Shown: positions 9,701 through 59,800 of the stretch, piece after piece
How the letters are laid out: each line of letters starts with the position of its first letter
How positions within the stretch are numbered: the first letter of the stretch is position 1
Program-made: the position numbers and the translations under genes
Notes under the pieces: model-generated
Told to the model about the DNA's origin: nothing
Databases searched by the model: none
The model's input: only the letters and a program-made list of their open reading frames with translations
DNA from: Zingiber officinale
Lineage: Eukaryota; Streptophyta; Magnoliopsida; Zingiberales; Zingiberaceae
Reading direction: 5' to 3'
Assembly: GCF_018446385.1 (NCBI RefSeq)
Contig: NC_056001.1
Location: 7,335,600-7,399,599, forward strand
Length of the DNA: 64,000 nt

Positions 9701-12700
9701 TCTAATATTGTTAAACTTAAATTTTATATATTATGTCTTTATTCTACTAAGCGTAAAACATTTTCCTTGTTTTCCATCGAAATTCTAGTTTAGCATTTAC
9801 TCCTTCACGTGTTTCATCTACCAAAATAATATCATCTGCAAACAACATGCACCATGCCTTGAATATGTGCAGTGAGTTCGTCCATAATTAGGGTAAAAAA
9901 ATAGAGATTTAGAGTTGATCTTTGATGTAACCTTATCTTTATTAGAAATGTTTTTGTTACTCCACCTGAAGGCTTTATTATGGTTGTTAAATCCTTGTAT
10001 ATATTCTTAATTAGTTCAATATATGTTACACTAACACTTTTCTTTTTTAAAATTCTCCTTATAATTTCTCTTGAGACTCTATTATAAATTTTTTCTAAGA
10101 CAATGAATAACATGTGTAGATCTTGTTTTTGCTCCCGATATTTTTTAATGAGTTGTCTATGAAGATGTATAGCTTTTATTGTTGACCTTCCATGCAGTCA
10201 AATTGATTTTCGATTATCGTGGTTTCCTTAATCTCTTTTCCATTATTTTTCTTGTATAACTCGTTAGTTTAATACCCCTATAGTTTGCACAATTTTGTAC
10301 GTCTTCCAAATAAGGGAACTAGAGTACTTACCCTTCATTGACCAGACTTTTTTTTTGTTTTCAATATCATGTTAAATAATTTTGTATGTCATTCAATATC
10401 TTATTTCTCTAGGCACTTTCTTACCTTTATCGGAATATGTCCAACGACTTTTCCATTGTGCATCCCATTTAAAATTTGTTCTACTTTTGAAATTTGAATT
10501 ATATGATAAAAATTTAAATTTCTATTCTCATTTGACTTAAATTATTTAAATTAAGTTGGACACTTAAACCTTCATTAAAAAGTTGATACTTTCACCGTTC
10601 TTTTATTTCTCCATCGTTTATTAGTACCCTATTATATTTATTTTTAATACATTTTATTTGGATAAGATCTTTTTTCTTCCTTTCTCTCACTTTAGCTACT
10701 CTATAAATGTCTCTTTTCTCGTCTTTTGTATCTAATTTTTGATATAATCGTTCAAAAATTTCATTCTTTACTTCAATCACTATTTTCTTAATCTCTTTTT
10801 TTTACTATTGTATATTTTTTAAAGTATTTTTCGTTCTTACAAATATATAATTCGTTGTAAGCTGTTTGTTTTTTCTTCACTTTCTCTTTTACTTTCTTAT
10901 TCTACCACCAAAATTCCTTAGTGGTGCATGTCCCTTTGACTCATCGAGTATACTCTTAACTACTATTTTCAATTTTGATATCATCTTATTCCATGTCGTA
11001 TTAGTGTCACCATATATTTCACCTAATACTTGTACTCCTACCTTCTACTTAAATATATTTTGCTTCCCATCCTTTAACTTCCACTACTTAATTATAGGAG
11101 TCGTATGTATTTTCTTTCTATTGATACTATACTTGAGACCTATATCCAATACTATTAACCTATGTTGGGTAGTTAAGCTTTCTCCAGGGATGATCTTGCA
11201 ATCTATATAAATCTTTCTATCCTTTTTCCTAATCATAAGAAAGTCAATTGGTGATTTTTTTTTTTCACTTTTGAACGTGACTAAATGTTCTTCTCTTTTT
11301 TTTAAAAAATGTATTAGTTAATATAAAGTCATATGCTATCGTAAAATCTAATATAGTTTTCTCTTCTTTATTTCTCGTTCTAAACTCATAACTCTCATCC
11401 CCATGCACCCTCTTATATTCCCCATTTTTCATTCCGATATGCCCATTTAGATCAATTCCTATTAAAATCATTTCATTTGGCAGAATGTTTTGTAATATTT
11501 TATCTAAGTCATCCAAAAATCTTGATTTGGTAGCTTCATCTAATCTTACTTGAGGTGCATATATGCTAATTATGTTTATAGTTTCTTTCGCCACTATTAT
11601 CTTAAGAGCTATAATTCTATCCTCTTTTCTCACTACTTCTACAATTTCATCTTTTAATGAATTATTATAACAATGCTCACTCCATTTCTTTCTTTACTTT
11701 TTCCTATATACCATAACTTAAAATCCGTGTTCTTTATCATCTTTACCTTCTCGCCTGCTTATTTTGTCTCTTGTATACACAAAATATTAATTCTTCTCCT
11801 AATCATCGTATCTATTACCTCCTTGAATTTACAGTGAGGATTTCTATATCCCATGTTCTCAATCTTAGACTATTAGTTTTCCTATCATATTTGTTCTTAT
11901 CCAACTTATGGTGTGAGAACTCTTGCCTATTTAACATTACACTCAAGTTTTCATGGAGATGTAGCGATCCTTGCCGATATGTTATAGTCGGATCTTGCAA
12001 CGCGAACTCTTGCATATTTAATACTACACCCGAGTTTTGGATGTAGCAGTCCTTGTTGAGATGTTATAGTCGGACCTTACAATGCATTCCTTCCAGGGAA
12101 TAACCTAGCATTAGCACAATAGTTTAATGAATTCATTCATTGTACATTTGTCATAGTTTTAATGTTGGTTGGCAACCTAACGTAACCCTCCTCCTTTTTC
12201 CGGGCTTGGGATTGGGCATGATTGGTTCGTTTTGGGCGGAGTTAAGCAAACCAGTATGGTTAACCTAAAATTGAATCTATTGGTATAGACATAGATATCA
12301 GCTAGCATGTGATAAGGTGGTTGCATCTCGATCAAATCTATATGATGAAAACTGTAGTCTCCTTACTCAACTTGGTGGAGCTTAGGTATACAAAAATGAA
12401 GTTGTTGGTATGTGACCTACCTTCATTAACCTAAGAGTTAGAGCATCCACGAAGGAGCTCCCTCTGAGGCGTGGATGCACCGAAAGAGTTCCCTCCCATT
12501 ATGGGGACGCTTCTTCGTTACTTTTTTTTTGTAATGTTTTTTATTTTTGTTTACAAAAATAAAAATAATAAAATATTTTTTTTAAAAAAAATAGGGAACG
12601 TTAAGTTTTAGTCGTTGAACAACGGCTAATTTTTATTTAAAAAAAATTCTATAAATATATTCTCTCAACCTTTCATTCTTCTTATCATTTTCTCAATTCT

Positions 12701-37119: not shown

Positions 37120-38451
37120 TTAACTTTCAGAATTACTATATTGTTCCCATAAATGCTCAATTAATGCATTTCGAAGGGCAATATGAGCTTCTTTGTCTTT
37201 GATTTGTCTGTATCGAGCTAGAAACTCTTCAAATCGAGTACCATCATCTCTTGCGGGCTCAACATCTGGAGTCGGCACCTCAAAGTGTTCCACGATTGGT
37301 GCATTTAAATCACGTTCATCTTCAATTATCATATTATGCATAATAATACATGATGTCAGTATATCATGTAAAATATTATTCTGCCAGAAACGTGAAGGTC
37401 CTGCAACAATTGCAAAGCGTGATTGGAGCACGCCAAATGCTCGCTCAACATCCTTTCTACACGCTTCTTGCTTCATTGCAAATAATTTATTCTTTCGACC
37501 TTGTGGAGCATGAATCGTTTGAACAAGTGTTGACCATTTTAGATATATACCATCAGCTAAATACTAACCCATATTGTACTCTTTTCCTTGAATGACATAA
37601 TGAGCAGGAATTGTAATACCTGCAGCAAGATTAGCAAAAAGATGAGAAGACTCAAGTACATTAATATCATTGTTCGATCCTGGCAACCCAAAATATGCAT
37701 GCCAAATCCACAGATCATAATCGGCTACAGCTTCTAGAATAGTTGTTGGCTTTCCACTACGACCAGAATATTGTCCTGCCCAAGCTGTTGGACAATTTTG
37801 CCATCTCCAATGCATGCAATCTAGGCTACCTAACATACCTGGAAAACCTCGTAGCTCACCAATATGAAGTAGCCTAGCAACATCGTGAGCATTTGGAGAT
37901 CGTAGGTACTGCCCTCCAAAAACTTCAACAACGGCACGACAAAATCGTTTCACACTTTCAATAGCAGTTGATTCCCCTATTTTAATGTACTCATCAGTAG
38001 CATCTGCTGGTACACCGTATGCTAATATCCGAAATGCAGCTGTTATTTTTTGTAAGCTTGACAAACCAAGTCTTCCAAGCCCATCTCTTCTCTGTATAAA
38101 ATAGTTGTCATGATTAGTAACAGCATCACATATACGCATAAATAAATTCCGTCCCATTCTGAATCTTCTTCGAAACATTGCATCATTATACAATGCATTT
38201 TCGGCGAAATAATCATTGAATAGATTACGATCAGCAGCTTCACGATTACGATTGATCATCTTATGACCAGGAATTGAACCTCGATGCCTGCTTTTGTTGC
38301 TTCCTTCATTGAGATAATTTAAGACAATTTGATTATTGGTAGAAATCACCTGAGCGATCAGTTGTTGCCTTGCACTAAAACTTTCTGCATAGTTATCATC
38401 ATCAGAGCTTGAAGATGATAAATTTGATGAACCTTCAATATTGTTATCCAT
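37120..38451 (-). pseudogene. Harbinger (ALP1-like, DDE_Tnp_4) transposase with one in-frame stop
   Basis: From the ATG at 38451 the frame runs to 37120, 444 codons including the final stop, interrupted only by a TAG at codon 296 (37566-37564), where relatives usually have a tyrosine before LADGIY. The catalytic triad is visible: Asp211 in SLDCMHW, Asp262 in PGSNNDINVL and Glu336 in DVERAFGVLQSRF. The N terminus is Ser/Asp/Asn-rich, followed by RNREAADRNLFNDYFAENAL. Unless the stop is read through, the product lacks the catalytic Glu and is inactive. One change in 444 codons points to recent activity. Such transposases normally work with a Myb-like partner, which this copy lacks. Confidence 0.88.
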
Positions 38452-38520
38452 TTTCTGAGATAATTGAATGATTGAGGTACATGTTGCTTATGGGGTATGT
38501 ATTTATAATGTATGTTATAA

Positions 38521-39348
38521 ACACATTTGGACAAATATGCACATATGACATGACACAACAATGACAACATCGAGACAAGTTTAGCAGGCGACATGACCGG
38601 GCATTGAAAACACATTTTTGTGTGCCAGATGATGCGACCTAACAATGAACACATTTGGACAAATATGCACAGATGACGTGACACAACAATGACATCGGGA
38701 CAATTTTGGCAGGCGACGTGACCGGGCATTAAACACACATTTTTTTGTGCCCAGATGACGTGACCTAACAATGAACACATTTGGACAAATATCACAGATG
38801 ACGTGACACAACAATGACAACATCAGGACAAGTTTGGCAGGCGACGTGACCGGGCATTGAACACATATTTTGTGTGCCCAGATGACATGACCTAACAATG
38901 AACACATTTGGACAAATATGCACAGATGACATGACACAACAATGACAACATCGGGACAAGTTTAGCAGGCGACGTGACCGGGCATTGAACACACATTTTT
39001 GTGTGCCCAGATGACGTGACCTAACAATGAACACATTTGGACAAATATCACAGATGACGTGACACAACAATGACAAGATCGGGACAAGTTTGGCAGGCGA
39101 CGTGACCGGGCATTGAACACATATTTTTGTGTGCCCAGATGACGTGACCTAACAATGAACACATTTGGACAAATATGCACAGATGACGTGACACAACAAT
39201 GACAACATCGGGACAAGTTTGGCAGACGACGTGACCGGGCATTGAACACACATTTTTGTGTGCCCAGATGATGTGACCTAACAATGAACACATTTGGACA
39301 AATATGCACAGATGACGTGACACAACAATGACAACATCGGGACAAGTT
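38521..39348. repeat. Tandem array, 6 full plus one partial unit of ~126-129 bp
   Basis: Unit starts, marked by ACACATTTGGACAAATAT, fall at 38521, 38649, 38775, 38902, 39031, 39159 and 39288, a period of 126-129 bases. Units differ by only a few bases. Each has three GACGTGAC-like octamers (some GACATGAC) and a small hairpin, CACACATTTTTGTGTG. The array ends 70 bases from the transposase start codon, on its upstream side. Open frames through the array in several phases arise only because the unit lacks stops. Confidence 0.92.
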
Positions 39349-39772: not shown

Positions 39773-41879
39773 TAACTAGCTATTATGTTACAAGTATATT
39801 TAGGCCTTATTTAATAGTTATAGAAAAATAAAAAAAAAATGTTGCATCATTCTTTAACAAATTTAAACATGTTAAATAGTTAATTTTAAATATTTCGTTT
39901 TGTTTATTTATTTATTTTATAAAAAATCAAGCAATTATGCCCGAAGAAATTTACCTCGTCCAACCAAACACTCACACCTGTGTGATGAAAAGACAAAAGG
40001 AGGGTTTGAGTTGAGCATAAGAATCTCGGTTCGAGCCACTGCTTAATCCAGAACAGAAGTTGTCGAATGTCCACTATCTGTAACAAGCTAAGAATAATAT
40101 TTTTTTCATCGAATTTGAAGAGTTCTATCACCAATTTGAATAAAGAAACGACACCCCTGAAGATGATAACACTTGATCTTATTTTTATTGTTTCATTTAA
40201 AATCATCTTAACTCACCCAAACTTTTTATCCACTCAAATGGCTTTGCAAAAAAACACAATCAAGCAATCTAACATTTAACTCAACCAAATAAACAGTATG
40301 GACCAAATTGAAACTAATCCCACATAAACTTTAAACATCAACTGTGGTGGTAGTCATTCGACTCGGTGGGGTTGCACTACTCCAGGCATTACGCATAGTA
40401 GCATGGATTCCCATTCCTCACTCCTTCCTAAGTTTATTACAAAGAACTTTTGGCTTTCTTCCTCTCTTTCCATGGCGACCAAGAAAGGTGCATGGTGATG
40501 GTGGGTGCATTTAATTTTCCTACTCTCTTTCCCCCTCTTTTTTTTTTTTTGTAAAAGAAAAAATTATAATAATAATAAGATGTGGTGTCTCTGTTGGAGA
40601 ATCCACAAACCATGCTTGCAAAGCTTGAAGGAGTGTGCGTCCTTTGTTTGCGTGCACACCATAGGGCCCTCCCTTCGAGTCTCCTCCATTATGAATCCTT
40701 CAACCGCACAAACATTGTCGCTGTTGTATGAAAAAGCATTGTCAATGTTTGTGTTGGGGTTGACTTGGTATACAAATCCAAATGAACCAGCCATCAATCC
40801 GAAGTCTTCTAAACTGTCGATCCTCCACACGACACATGTTCCTTGACCTATGACCACACTAACCATGATTAGCATGGCCTTAATTATGCCACAAAACCCC
40901 CACTTTACCTAAAGCAACAAAAGAACTACCCTCCCTAATATAATCCTCATCCCTTAACCCAAAAGCAGGGCACATATACCCCACGCTACTTAACGAGTGG
41001 ACCGCAGGAGAGCCCTTCCCTTAATCCCTCTTTCCTTTTGTTCCCTCAACCCTAAGCAAAGGCAGCATGACCCCGAAAGAAGACTTAAAGCTACTTTGTC
41101 CAATCCTTGAGGGACTAAACAAACTGTGAGCAAATCTTTCACCTTGAGACCTCAAGATTTGGTATCATAGCGTGCTTTCTTAACATCCCTGGGTCTGTGT
41201 ACATCTTTTGTTATAATATACGGGCAAGAACAAGGGCAAGAAGAAAAAAAAAATGCTTCATGACTAATAAAAAGAACAAGGGCAAGAAGAATATACGGCT
41301 TTTCTTAAAGTGCATTTAAAGTAGTGTTATTGACTTTTGAAGCTTTTTTTGTTGCTGCTTAATGATCAATTTTTTAAATAATTTTTCTTAATTTATTTAT
41401 GTTCATGCGTCCTCACTTCCTTTGATGCTTTGTATCTTCTTGTGCCTCATATTCCTTCCTTTCTCGTTCTAAGTGGAAATCTGATGCAATATTAAATACG
41501 CATTAAAAAGAGGAAAAAAATATTTTATCAAAATATAATGTGAAACTAAATCACATTATGTTAGAAATTTTACAAAATGTAATAAAAAATGGAAGCCTAT
41601 AATTATATATATTTTTTGTTCATTTGGTAGTGGGCAATTCTGCAATACAACAAAATGGCGAGGGTGGAATGGAACTATATCGTTCAAACTATGGTTCGTG
41701 GCAGCAAACTCAACTCGGGTCAACATATTCTTTGACAGCGTCGCATTTATGAAGCATTATGCCCTCGAAGGGCAATTAATAATCAAGAACTACATCGTAG
41801 TACAATTAAGGTACTAGTAAATTGGCGTGACCAGTGAGGGTATTTTAGTCCGAAGAGTTCCATAAAGAGCCACGCCTCT
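39773..41879. other. Intergenic stretch with no recognised gene
   Basis: A minus-strand open frame of 103 codons at 40875-40564 starts MLIMVSVVIGQGTCVVW and resembles no family I know; it is probably chance or a decayed fragment. AT-rich blocks lie at 39780-39950 and 41460-41640. Nothing else is supported. Confidence 0.4.
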
Positions 41880-42727
41880 GGGCTTCCTCCCCTCGTGATC
41901 GCTCGGTGCCCAAGAAGGAAAGATTCGTCCTCTCCCTCCCTCGCGATCGTTGCCTCGCTCGCTCGTGCTCTTCCCTCCAGCGCGTGCGATTCGGTCTTTT
42001 TGGTGTTCGGCATCGACGTGGAGGGGTAAGATCCGTGGTGTTCCCCGAGGAATTGTGTTTTTCGTTAGTGTATGTTGGGCTACTTGAAGTTATCTCGGTT
42101 GTGGTTCTTGATTCAGTTTTCATCTGATAGGCGATTTTTGGAGTCTTGGGATTTGGTTTTTCTATGATATTGTATCATGCTTAAGATCGAGTCTTTATTC
42201 GCATTTTTCGTGGCATCATGTGTCTTGTTGCTTTGATTTGGGAGCTTCTAGTTTTCCGCTTTCTTTCTCCTCGAGGGGGTTCTCCCTTTGCCGGCTTTGC
42301 GCACATTAAAGTTAGAACTCTTCGCAGTAGCTCATGCAACAAATCAACTTAGACTTCGGTTTCATTCCGGCAATTGCTTTCAGTGGAGATCTTTGTATGT
42401 GACTTGACGAGTCGCAGGAGCGCATTTGTTACCCGGAAGCTACTTCCAAGGTTATCTAGGTTCGACCGCATCTATCGTTTTTTTTTTTGGTAAAAAGAAT
42501 TTATCAAACATTATCGGTTATATTGCTAGATTATGGAGTCTCAGTTGCAAGTTTACACCTTTTTTCCTTTTAAAGTTTTCGTTTACTTTTAGAAGAATTG
42601 ATAACTCACTGTACTTCAGGACAGCCAATCTCATGTTTGGGCTTTGATATTGATTTTTGTTGTTGCAGGAATTCCAAGCTGTGAGAGGTGGAAAAATAAA
42701 TTTTGGTGATAAACGATTTAGAACAAT

Positions 42728-42805
42728 ATGCGGCGGCTGAGTCTATCTGTTGATGTTTACCGCAGAGTGATTTCTTTGAACTTGTATTGTAGGGTGATTC
42801 TGTAA
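42728..42805 (+). CDS. Upstream ORF of 25 codons in the bHLH leader
   Basis: ATG CGG CGG CTG to CTG TAA, a 25-residue peptide beginning MRRLSLSVDVYRR. It lies 60 bases after the inferred acceptor at 42668, so it should be in the mature mRNA. I do not recognise the peptide as conserved. Its likely effect is simply to lower the number of ribosomes reaching later AUGs. Confidence 0.35.
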   Translation: MRRLSLSVDVYRRVISLNLYCRVIL

Positions 42806-43108
42806 CTCATTTCTTCCGCCCATGGTTCTTTCCTTCTAACGTTCCCTCTCCTTTCTGGTTCTGGTATTAAAACTCCCTTTCTTTGGAATGCTCTCTTGAA
42901 TTGGTTATACTTTTCTGGTTCAGGCATCAAAGCTCTCTTTTATTTGAGATAGCAGCAACCCCAATGTTTTCTAATGCCTTGCGCTCCTCTTCCATCTTAA
43001 TCTGTACTTTGCTTGTTTAGGTATCGTTTGTGTTTCATTCATCTCGATTTCTTTGTGCTTTGTTGGTTTATTGGACTGGTTCGTATATTAGAGGAAAGAA
43101 TTGTAGGA

Positions 43109-43362
43109 ATGGTGTGTCAAGCAGCAACAAGAACCGCATTCCGAGCTTTGAAACATGAGAATGGAATCGCTGGTAGCACCACTATAATCATTAGGGTCAT
43201 CGCTTGTTTCCAACCATTGCAAGATTGCCAGGTAAAATTGAAAACCCGCCATGGCCTGCTGTGGTATTGAGAACAGAAAAAAGCTATTTTCACTGGCTTG
43301 ACTAATTTTTGCATTTTCAACAGGCTGAATACTTCCGCCACCTCCTGAAGCCTGTTACGTAA
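43109..43362 (+). CDS. Conserved SAC51-type peptide uORF, 53 codons, split by an intron
   Basis: Two exons, 43109-43231 and 43324-43362, give a 53-residue peptide: MVCQAATRTAFRALKHENGI, then AG and TT with a short Ile run, RVIACFQPLQDCQ, and after the intron AEYFRHLLKPVT. This matches the conserved uORF peptide of Arabidopsis SAC51 and its paralogues, from memory, both in sequence and in length. In those genes the uORF represses translation of the bHLH frame, and thermospermine relieves the repression; the sac51-d allele truncates the uORF (established). The 92-base intron has GTAAAA and CAACAG borders and falls exactly between CQ and AE. The uORF ends 218 bases before the main ATG. Confidence 0.93.
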
Positions 43363-43580
43363 ATTATTCTCTCGCTTGCAGTTTATCTTCAATCAAAATC
43401 TTGGTTTTCTTATCTTCTTCTTTTGGTAGAGTTTCGGGAATAATTTGGAATTACCATTTGCCTGAGGTAAAACATGAGTTTTTATTCGTTTATGATCCAT
43501 CTCGTCCATCATAGTTAATTCATGGATCTATTTAAATCAACTTATACTTGCTCTCAGGTGATTGATTTGGGTATTTGTTG

Positions 43581-44495
43581 ATGGACCAAAGAAATAATCC
43601 CCCCATCAATTCCCAGTGCCTACCGTGGCAATTTAGTAACATGGTATCTGCTAGAAATAATACACAATTTGCTACCATGCCTCAGGACTCCATTTCAATG
43701 CTCTCCTCTGCATTTGTTAATCCATCTGCTAGTCTCTTTCCAGTAACTTCTGCAATACCTTTCCCTGGTTTCTACACCTATACTTATATTCAGAAGACAT
43801 CACCCCTCATTCCTCCGTTTTCATCTCATGGAGTTCTTGAATTGGACTCAAATAAAAGACACTTAGTTTTTGATCAGATAAGAGATGGAAGGAGCTTCAT
43901 CTGTAACTCAGCTAGTGTCCCTGATCCATGCATCGACTCTGTGAACCCAGGTTTTGACCTGCAGGGAAACACTGTCACAAGTGTAGCCAATGGACATGGA
44001 GCTGATGAGATGCGTGAAGACACGGAAGAAATTGATGCACTGTTATACTCAGATTCCGACTTCAATAATGGCGATGAAGAAACCAGCACAGGACATTCTC
44101 CAGCTGAGCCTGAGGTAGTGGAGAGGACTTTTTCTGAGGTAGCTAGCTCTATTCTTCCGGCAAAGCGGCGGAGAATTGATGTGAATGATGAATTCGATGT
44201 ATCACTGTTCAATACTGCTAGCTCACAAGTACTCCATTGCTCTGATATACTTACAGATCACAGGAACAAACAGGATGATAACAATTCTGCATCTAGCTGC
44301 TTTAAAGCAGTATATCCTGATCAGAATGAAGAGAACAGGGTATTCAAAAGAGCCAAAATTCAGGAAACACTTGGCATACTGAGAAAGATCATCCCTGGTG
44401 GGAATTGCAAGGATGCAATTACAGTCCTGGATGAGGCCATCAACTATCTCAACTCACTTAAGCTGAAGGCTCAATTGTTGGAAAGTTTTCCTTAG
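43581..44495 (+). CDS. SAC51-type bHLH transcription factor (bHLH142-145 group)
   Basis: One coding exon of 304 residues, starting MDQRNNPPINSQCLPWQFSN. The codon before the ATG is TTG, so the start is the ATG at 43581. The middle has an acidic block (EIDALLYSDSDFNNGDEETSTGH, here broken only for description as EIDALLYSDSD then FNNGDEE), then AKRRRID. A C-terminal helix-loop-helix covers about residues 250-300 (RAKIQETLGILRKIIPGG, then AITVLDEAINYLNSLKLK). The basic part lacks the Glu-x-x-Arg pattern that reads E-boxes, as in other SAC51 proteins. SAC51 acts in the thermospermine pathway that limits xylem differentiation (established). The conserved uORF just upstream supports the assignment. 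The DNA target and dimer partner cannot be read from the sequence. Confidence 0.92.
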   Translation: MDQRNNPPINSQCLPWQFSNMVSARNNTQFATMPQDSISMLSSAFVNPSASLFPVTSAIPFPGFYTYTYIQKTSPLIPPFSSHGVLELDSNKRHLVFDQIRDGRSFICNSASVPDPCIDSVNPGFDLQGNTVTSVANGHGADEMREDTEEIDALLYSDSDFNNGDEETSTGHSPAEPEVVERTFSEVASSILPAKRRRIDVNDEFDVSLFNTASSQVLHCSDILTDHRNKQDDNNSASSCFKAVYPDQNEENRVFKRAKIQETLGILRKIIPGGNCKDAITVLDEAINYLNSLKLKAQLLESFP

Positions 44496-55336: not shown

Positions 55337-56883
55337 TCAAGACAACAGCCGCTTCTTCGTCGTCGGCTTCAAGTCCACCACCAACCTATCGAGATCGGCG
55401 GTGGAGGAACCATCCGGACCGACAGCCTCCCTCGCCTTCCGCTTCCACTCCGCCGCCCTGCGCCTCAAGTCCTCGTCCGCCATCACCTCCCGCACGGACC
55501 GTTCCACCGCCTCCCGCGTCACCTCGCCACTAATCTCCACGCCTATACGCCACGTGGTGCACAGGAACCGGCAGTTGGTGTGCTGCTCCGCGAAGAACGG
55601 CCAGCATATCATGGGCCTGCCCTCGACCACACTCTCCAGCGTCGAGTTCCAGCCGCAATGCGACAGGAATGCTGCCGTCGCCGGGTGCGCCAAAACCCTC
55701 CGCTGGTCGCACCAACCCACCACCGAGCCCCGATCGCCCGCTTTCGCCGCCAAGTCCCCGACTATCTCCGCCGCACCGCCATCCCGCATCAGATCCGGCC
55801 GCACCGCCCACAGGAACCGGTGCCCGCTCCGCTCCAGGCCGCATGCGAACTCCGCCAGCTGCGACGTCGTGACCATCGTGATGCTACCGAAGTTGACGTA
55901 GAGGACGGAGGCGGAGGGCTGGGCGTCCAGCCACCGGAGGCACTCCGCGTCCTCCTTCCAGAGGGAGGAGGAGACGGAGGAGGATGCGAGCGGGCCTATG
56001 GCGTAGAGGTTGGGGTACTTGGAGCGGATCGCGGCGAGCACCGGATCCTCTAGGGCGGCGAAGGTGTTGAAGATGAGACCCGCGCTGCGAGCGACGTCGA
56101 CGATGGCACGGCGGACGTTGAGATTGAGCAAGACGTCGGCTGGGTCGGTGGTACGGACGAAGGAAGGGAAGTCGCGGAGGCGGAGGTTTTCCAGGCCAGG
56201 GATCCAGTCGATGGGCGTGTCCAGGTAGCCGTTGATCAAGCAGTTTGCGTCTACCAAATGCTTGCAAAATTGTCAAGCGATCTCTCTCTCTCTCTCAAAA
56301 ATAAATAAATAAATAAATAAATAAAAAAGTCTATATATATTTTGGAAACTAGTTATTTTGTACCTTTGAGAGGCGTGTAGCCTCTGGCGACGAGGTCCGG
56401 AAATTGTAGGTAGCTCCAGCATCCGCAAGCGCTGTGCGTGACGAAGAAGAACACGGGCACGCCGAAGTCCTCGTCGACGGTGAACCCCATCCCGCTGTCG
56501 GAGACGATGCTCGTCACCGGCGGCGTGTCGGGCGCGCGGCCGAGGTGGGCCATGAGATCCCTGAAGGGGGCCAGGCAGGTGTAGCGCACGGACGAGCACA
56601 AAGCCAGGACGTCCTGCGTCTCGTCTCGCTGGTCCGGAGGCGGTTCGGGGAGGCCGTCGGGGATGGTCTCGACGCGGAAGGATGGGCTGGCGGCGGCGTC
56701 CCAGCGGTGACCCCGGGCGCGCTCCATGCGGCGGGCGTTGTACTCCGTGAGGACGAAGGTGACGTGGAAGCCGCGGGCGAGGAGGAGGGTGGCCAGCCGC
56801 AGGAACGGGGTGATGTGGCCTTGCATCGGAAAGGGGACGAGAACGGCGTGGGGTTGTGGCTCGGCCACCGTCGGAGAAGCCAT
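55337..56883 (-). CDS. UDP-glycosyltransferase, UGT85-like, 2 exons
   Basis: Exons 56883-56364 and 56250-55337, joined length 1434, giving 477 residues, typical for plant UGTs. The catalytic His is probably His23 in PFPMQGHITP, with Asp129 (IVSDSGMGFT) as its partner. The C-terminal PSPG box spans Trp353-Gln396 with HCGWNS and ends FFAEQ, the Gln often found in glucosyltransferases. The segment PLKDANCLINGYLDTPIDWI and the single intron after PLK fit the UGT85 group. The acceptor GCATTTGGTAG is chosen because it gives LKD..NGYLD as in relatives. Likely a cytosolic enzyme adding sugar to small molecules (cyanohydrins, terpenols or hormones in relatives); the acceptor here is unknown. The intron (113 bases) holds CT and AAAT microsatellites. 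Exons are very GC-rich, giving long false frames on the other strand. Confidence 0.95.
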
Positions 56884-59800
56884 CGATTTTTAGATTCCAA
56901 TCGCTACTGGCCGGCAGCGTCGTCGTTCGCTATGATTAACATTTCAGTCGAGCACTGACACGTTATCTCTCGCACAAATATCTGCTTATTAATGCCGACA
57001 ACAATCGAAGCTTGACAGTTAAATGATCTTTCGAAGAGTTTTACTAAAAACGAACTCATAATTTATTTTTCAAATTGACATCTAATATTTTCTAATATCA
57101 AAATGTGGGATTGATCGACATAATAATTAATTAAAGAAGACGCAAGCTATTTGGCCAAAGATAAAAGGATCTTATTCCATCTAGAGGTAGAGAAATACTT
57201 AAGGTTTTGTTTATTTGGAGAGACAACCTTTCGAGTAAACGTTTTATTAGCAGGAAAGCCCGAAAGCCGTTCCCGTCCTGTCATGGGACATGCCAGCCGC
57301 CTCTCCTCCCTACGAACACAGTAAATTTTTATTAAGATTTAGCAAAAGTCATCTTTGTAAAATAAAATATAATCATTTTTGCCACCATCTTTATATAATA
57401 GTAAATCGGTAGATTGAACATGTCAGTACTACTGTATGAAAAGATATTTTTTCTAGCTTCATCAGAAATATCGATCCTTATTTAATTTGATAATTCTATT
57501 AGTTTTATTTGATAATTCTATCATTGACTTGATTCTATAATTATACCTTATAGTAACAACTCAGTAAGTTATTAAAAATTTTAATAAATCAGATCTATAA
57601 AAATTTCTTATTCGTTGAAAAGTGTTCACGATGAATAATTTAAAAACTTAGGATCTCATGATTATACGTCGTTTGAAAGAAAAAATCTTTATAAATTCAC
57701 TAATTGTAATTGCATGGCCGGCGAGTTCAGTCAAGCCACTGGACTTAAGGAGGGGAGGAAAGTGAATAAATTTTTAGACTGATTTATTTAATATTAAAAA
57801 GAAACTGAGAAGGTGTAGGTGATGGCAAAATTGATGATCTCAAATAGCTAATAATGCGGTGTGCAGTTTTGTAAGTATGTTCTATGATCAACAACTTTTA
57901 ATAATCGCTAGTGATAAATGGTTGGGAGGAGGTAAGAAAAGGAGAGGGAAGGAAATCTTAATTTAGGGTGCAAGGAAAGGAAAGATAAGAGAGGATAAAT
58001 TTTAATCTTTTTTATACATGAAATGAAAGAATTTATTACATTTATATTAGAGGTGTAAGAAAGCATATATATATATAAGTGGATTAAAAAAATTATATTT
58101 TAATTTTATCTCTATTTTATTATATTAATTTTTAAAATTATTATTTTAGATATTCTTTACGATGTAACGAAAAATATTTATACCGCTCGATTTCCATCGC
58201 CCGATGCTCGCACTCCGTCGACGTTGATTGACTTTAACACCGATGTCGACTTTGACGTCGACTTCAACCCTGATTTTAACAAATGAACTATAAAATAATA
58301 GGAAGATAATAAAATATTTTCTTTAATTAAAAGAAATAAAAAAACAACTGAACTTTTATTTAATTTCTATCACACAATTATAATATTTTAAAAATAAATT
58401 CATTATAGATTTTATCAGATAAAATATATTTCAAATTTTATAATTAATTTACTTTTTGACTTGAAAGTTATTATATATTTATTTATTAAAAAAACTTCAT
58501 CGACACAAACTCAGCAGGTGTGAGCTAGAAGTGTCCTGTGTGACAAACAATCACAATTATTTATTATTATTATTATTATTATTATTTACTCCACAAGAAA
58601 CAATTAGGCCACGGGTCCCTAAGGATTGCCGTCCCTGCAAGACCATCTGGCTCTGAGTAGCAGTGAAAAGGATGAAGTTCTTAGTTCGGCCTTATCTCCA
58701 TCACACATCAACCATCAGGCCTTTTTCTGTGCCTAGTAGGATTGATAGAGAGAAATAGAGACAGAGAAGACCGTCCAATTAATCCTCAAATTAGCTCCAC
58801 AGAAATCAAGAAAATGGGGCTTGAAACTCCTCTCGAGGAATAATTTTTAGAAGATCTAATTAATGATCACAGAAAGGAAAAATGGAAAAAGCAGACTGAA
58901 GCGCGCTGATGAATCTCACAGAAGAGATGATAGGGAAACCGTCTTTTTCCTGTAAAGCAGGGCAGAGTGCGACAGGTTCTAGTACGAAGGCGAGGAAGGA
59001 GATTGATTAGGAGAAGGAAGCGTAGAATTGCCGGCAAGTGAGAGGCCGATAAGCGTACGTGTGTCGGTTGGCGTGTAATGGGAATGTGCGAGCATGATAC
59101 TGACGAGTTAATATCGATCCGTGAAATTTATTGAAAGAATAAAAGTCGGTGCATGGATTAAACCAGATCGGAGCAGCGCATTGAAAGTTGGTCGCAGCGT
59201 TAAATTACATACCGCTATGCGACAGGTCGAATTATTATTAAAATGTGTACTTACTCTTTAAATACTAGCGCACGTATAAATTATATAAAATAAATATTTA
59301 TAGTCAATTATTTAATATTAGTATAATTTATTTTATAACAAATTAATTTGAAATTTTTTAAAAAAGATTATTAATTATACCTAAATTATGTGGCACGAAT
59401 ATTTTATATCATTCCAAAAATCGATAAAATAACAAATATAGATAGATACGGATATGTTTTTTTTTCAAAAAAAATTGATAAAATACATATGAATTGATAT
59501 GACTATATTGATATACAAAGAGATGATCTATAGTAAAAATGAGAGAGAGGGGGGGAAGGAGAGAACAATCAAAATTGATAAGGATTGAGACGATGAAAAG
59601 AAGTTAAAATTACTAATAAGAATTGGAATTATTTTTGATGTAAAAGAAATATTAATATAACTTAATTTTAGATTTTACAAAATCAAATTTAATAATGTAG
59701 GATAGAATATATATATATATATATATGTTTTAATTTAAAAGGAATACTTGATTTCAAAAAATAAATATTCTAAATTTTAGACAATATATTATTGTCTTAG

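Follow-up and report, generated by a model that had tools for sequence, protein, structure and literature searches.

In Arabidopsis, the SAC51 gene consists of four exons, with three introns contained within a leader of 870 bases and the entire coding sequence placed in exon 4; the leader carries uORFs of 20, 16, 48, 53 and 6 aa, of which the first and the fourth are conserved (PMC4308196). These uORFs are located in exons 2 and 3 (PMC6504692). The conserved uORFs of the family have been described as groups: HG15.1 uORFs are 18-27 aa long and have hydrophobic residues at eight of their nine C-terminal positions, and HG15.3 uORFs are 43-54 aa long and conserved at both their N- and C-terminal ends, the latter having 13 invariant positions out of 14 (PMC2075485). 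The uORFs of homology group 15 reach as far as a fern; the Marchantia homologue carries uORF peptides that share no homology with this group (PMC11020214).

The model developed for the family is one of peptide-dependent repression through stalling or failed reinitiation, and ESUCA places HG15.3 among the sequence-dependent regulators (PMC7106846). The sac51-d allele shortens the uORF to three residues, and suppressors map to RPL4, RPL10 and RACK1 (both PMC4308196). NMD of SAC51-family mRNAs has also been documented.

Here we consider a locus in a 64,000-nucleotide stretch of the ginger (Zingiber officinale) genome (contig NC_056001.1, positions 7,335,600 to 7,399,599), hereafter the window, in which a preliminary description had noted a SAC51-type uORF split by an intron upstream of a bHLH gene. 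We assign a probability of roughly 0.9 to the reading that this is a SAC51-family gene with an HG15.3 conserved uORF, a small phase-0 intron within that uORF, and peptide-based repression. The family identity is drawn from several features in conjunction: the Pfam match of the main ORF, the layout of the gene, the splice sites, and the peptide, length and position of the uORF.

A 53-residue uORF divided by a predicted short intron

The features of the locus are collected in Table 1. Splice sites were scored with a rough plant splice matrix composed from general knowledge, and the introns are predicted from these scores alone.

Table 1. Features of the SAC51-type locus, in window coordinates.
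Feature	Position	Strand	Basis
Intron 1, 643 nt, predicted	42026..42668	+	donor ranked second and acceptor first in the leader
First uORF, 25 aa, MRRLSLSVDVYRRVISLNLYCRVIL	42728..42805	+	opened by the first ATG of the spliced leader
Conserved uORF, part 1 (first 41 codons), MVCQAATRTAFRALKHENGIAGSTTIIIRVIACFQPLQDCQ	43109..43231	+	translation
10-aa and 8-aa uORFs, out of frame, within the conserved uORF (ATGs 43155, 43161)	43155..43187	+	ORF reading
Intron 2, predicted, 92 nt, GT-AG, phase 0, interrupting the uORF ahead of its last 12 codons	43232..43323	+	splice-site scores
Conserved uORF, part 2 (last 12 codons), AEYFRHLLKPVT, then stop TAA	43324..43362	+	translation of the spliced sequence
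Intron 3, 91 nt, predicted, between uORF stop and main ATG	43467..43557	+	fourth-best donor and fifth-best acceptor of the leader
Main ORF, 304-aa SAC51-type bHLH protein	43581..44495	+	uninterrupted, single exon; Pfam PF23173

Translation of the two exonic pieces bears out the 53-residue uORF that had been proposed: the joined peptide runs MVCQAATRT...FQPLQDCQ and continues into AEYFRHLLKPVT across a phase-0 border. The start codon lies in the context GTAGGAATGG, with G at both -3 and +4, and supplies the only Met among the 53 residues. Codon 4 is CAA (Gln), so that a C-to-T change in this codon would likewise leave a uORF of three residues, which fits the sac51-d allele.

The intron that had been described as splitting the uORF also stands, as a prediction. 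Its donor, CAG/GTAAAA at 43232, ranks first among the 110 GT sites of the leader, and its acceptor, TTTTCAACAG/G at 43323, ranks second among the 81 AG sites; each falls in the top 0.5% of scores across the window. On our reading of the sequence, a branch-point-like GACTAAT lies about 20 nt 5' of the acceptor. Since the Arabidopsis SAC51 uORFs occupy exons 2 and 3, a uORF spanning that junction would be unsurprising.

With all three predicted introns removed and a transcript start assumed near 41860, the spliced leader comes to about 895 nt, its first exon is free of ATGs, and the entire coding sequence falls in exon 4. The bHLH frame had been placed 218 bases downstream of the uORF, which holds in the genome but not in the mRNA, where the distance from uORF stop to main ATG shrinks to 127 nt upon removal of intron 3. 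The next exon junction would then lie 104 nt past the uORF stop. With intron 3 spliced out, the stretch from the uORF stop to 43581, where the main ORF begins, is free of ATGs; retaining the intron would add three, including one that overlaps the main start. The main ATG itself is weakly placed, with T at -3.

Likened to the published descriptions of the group, the uORF is assigned to HG15.3 on its length, which falls inside the range reported for that group, together with its position, the layout of the leader and the gene family. Strings of the uORF peptide found no match in the full texts of the papers searched, and viral and prokaryote contigs scanned with the peptide contained no relatives, which is unsurprising for an element of plants.

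The main ORF and its neighborhood

The preliminary description's assignment of the downstream gene to the SAC51-family bHLH proteins is upheld by Pfam and by a leader layout like that of Arabidopsis SAC51. Residues 256-294 of the main ORF match PF23173 (bHLH_SAC51) with E=1.8e-07 and 31.5 bits against a cut-off of 28.5, a margin of only 3 bits. In the same Pfam search the generic HLH model PF00010 scored under its cut-off, and PDB and NCBIfam searches with the main ORF gave no informative match. The basic region of canonical bHLH proteins contains a Glu that contacts the E-box. At what we take to be the corresponding position the main ORF has Arg, which agrees with an atypical bHLH protein. 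The sequence and frame of the uORF, the quality of its splice sites and the family of the main ORF are direct observations at this locus.

The window holds several other features. A full-length U6atac minor spliceosomal snRNA lies at 57193-57319 (-; Rfam, 46.1 bits against a gathering score of 33). Two open pieces at 55337-56883 (-) are probably a single UDP-glycosyltransferase gene split by an intron; the piece at 55337-56257 (-) matches PF00201 (E=1.5e-23), and that at 56353-56883 (-) resembles the N-terminal part of such an enzyme, with no match in a Pfam search. A Harbinger-like plant transposase (PF04827, E=3.5e-54) occupies 37564-38451 (-) and is adjoined by repeated peptide-like stretches at 38358-39345. 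At 11265-11633 (-), a weak, sub-cut-off match to the endonuclease-reverse transcriptase family PF14529 is perhaps a LINE remnant.

Comparison with SAC51, SACL2 and SACL3 leaders

The locus and Arabidopsis SAC51 (At5g64340), whose uORF4 is the HG15.3 member, are alike in their predicted layout: the leader measures about 0.9 kb, is interrupted by three introns, begins with an ATG-free exon and carries a 53-aa uORF, and exon 4 encodes a SAC51-type bHLH main ORF. The two differ in that the uORF studied here has no internal Met, and hence no counterpart of uORF6, the internal uORF of Arabidopsis SAC51. They differ also in their remaining uORFs, which in the predicted spliced leader precede the 53-aa uORF in the order 25, 5, 5, 3, 18 and 8 aa, as against 20, 16, 48 and 6 aa in Arabidopsis.

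The family has a second conserved uORF, HG15.1, for which the first of these is a candidate by position and length. Seven of its last nine residues (LNLYCRVIL) are hydrophobic, compared with the published eight of nine, and the same proportion of seven in nine is found at the C-terminus of the 18-aa uORF at 42964.

In the SACL2-type leaders (AtSACL2, OsSACL2, PtSACL2 and GmSACL2), as here, the conserved uORF contains no further start codon in its own frame. SACL3-type leaders carry a conserved uORF of the same group; the published SACL3 homologues have a further uORF inside it, and at the ginger locus the ATGs inside it are the two out-of-frame ones.

Is the split frame a coding element?

We considered whether the 41-codon and 12-codon frames might be unrelated, with no such peptide being made. 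Length is no argument against this: of 2000 dinucleotide-shuffled versions of the spliced leader, 1187 contain a uORF of 53 codons or longer, and we therefore dropped length as evidence. Codon usage was set aside as well, its signal being too weak: similarity of the uORF to the main ORF is weakly above the shuffles (37/2000), and the reverse strand scores equally. Against a chance origin, top-ranked splice sites connect both frames in phase 0, and the place and length of the uORF are those expected for a gene of the SAC51 Pfam family, so that we regard a chance ORF as extremely improbable.

Control through the RNA rather than the peptide, by a polyamine-binding riboswitch, has been raised as a possibility for SAC51 (PMC6504692). 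In the ginger gene, however, the spliced leader is predicted to form less stable structures than its shuffled versions (z = +2.0; +0.8 for the uORF region) and an Rfam search of the leader found no match; we accordingly disfavor RNA structure as the sensor and consider such a mechanism very unlikely here. Slightly less remote, though still improbable, is that splicing acts as a second switch, with splice choice setting repression independently of polyamine. Intron 2 lies between the codons for the 41-residue body and those for the last 12 residues, and these 12 account for most of the C-terminal motif that is described as almost invariant among family members. Its retention would yield a different 53-aa peptide ending VKLKTRHGLLWY, and use of an alternative acceptor at 43381 a 56-aa peptide ending FIFNQNLGFLIFFFW. 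Because either event would swap the repressive end and leave the start codon untouched, splice choice could in principle set the level of repression.

Peptide-based repression remains the preferred reading, and by analogy with the Arabidopsis family we infer repression, NMD and LHW antagonism for this locus. After splicing, scanning ribosomes would initiate at 43109, in good context, and produce the 53-aa peptide. The nascent chain with its C-terminal end would stall the ribosome or block reinitiation, and the main ATG would seldom be used as a result. The position of the exon junction past the uORF stop fits NMD, and we predict that this junction acts as an NMD trigger by exposing the mRNA to that pathway. 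Derepression would release an HLH protein of atypical kind, lacking the canonical basic region, which would dampen LHW-type bHLH dimers in xylem formation.

Implications for the thermospermine response

In the published reporter work, every responsive leader tested contained the conserved uORF together with an internal in-frame uORF6 starting from its second Met, and loss of the uORF4 and uORF6 starts together abolished the response to thermospermine (Ishitsuka 2019, PMC6504692). In the same study the leaders of OsSACL2, PtSACL2, GmSACL2 and BoSACL3 gave no response, and homologues of SACL2, which are without the additional internal uORF, were unresponsive (PMC6504692). We sought an equivalent of uORF6 in the 53-residue uORF and found no in-frame internal start. 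The label "thermospermine-responsive" that had been attached to the uORF is thus not sustained as written: with the uORF6 start missing, a response is less likely than was implied.

The copy looks like the SACL2 type, and its leader may be one that thermospermine does not affect. We lean modestly toward the reading that the conserved uORF represses constitutively, is insensitive to thermospermine, and would hold the protein at a fixed low level, with NMD. The single Met of the uORF and the behavior of the SACL2-type leaders argue for it, as does the finding that mutations in the uORF of SACL2 still relieve repression of this gene (PMC12436307). Two observations count against it, however: an AtSAC51 mutant of the uORF6 start alone retained its response (PMC6504692), and SACL3, which is without uORF6 in Arabidopsis, has been treated as relieved by thermospermine (PMC12436307). 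A response like that of Arabidopsis SAC51 is a lesser though substantial possibility; it is favored by SAC51-family membership and the near-identical layout, and disfavored by the missing uORF6 equivalent.

This kind of control element is already well known, and the ginger locus adds one further example of it. In other words, it is a further genomic instance of a hormone-linked translational switch in vascular development, here without an internal uORF6 start. Copies of this sort could help to decide whether the target of thermospermine is uORF6 or the shared peptide end, a question left undecided in the earlier work (PMC6504692).
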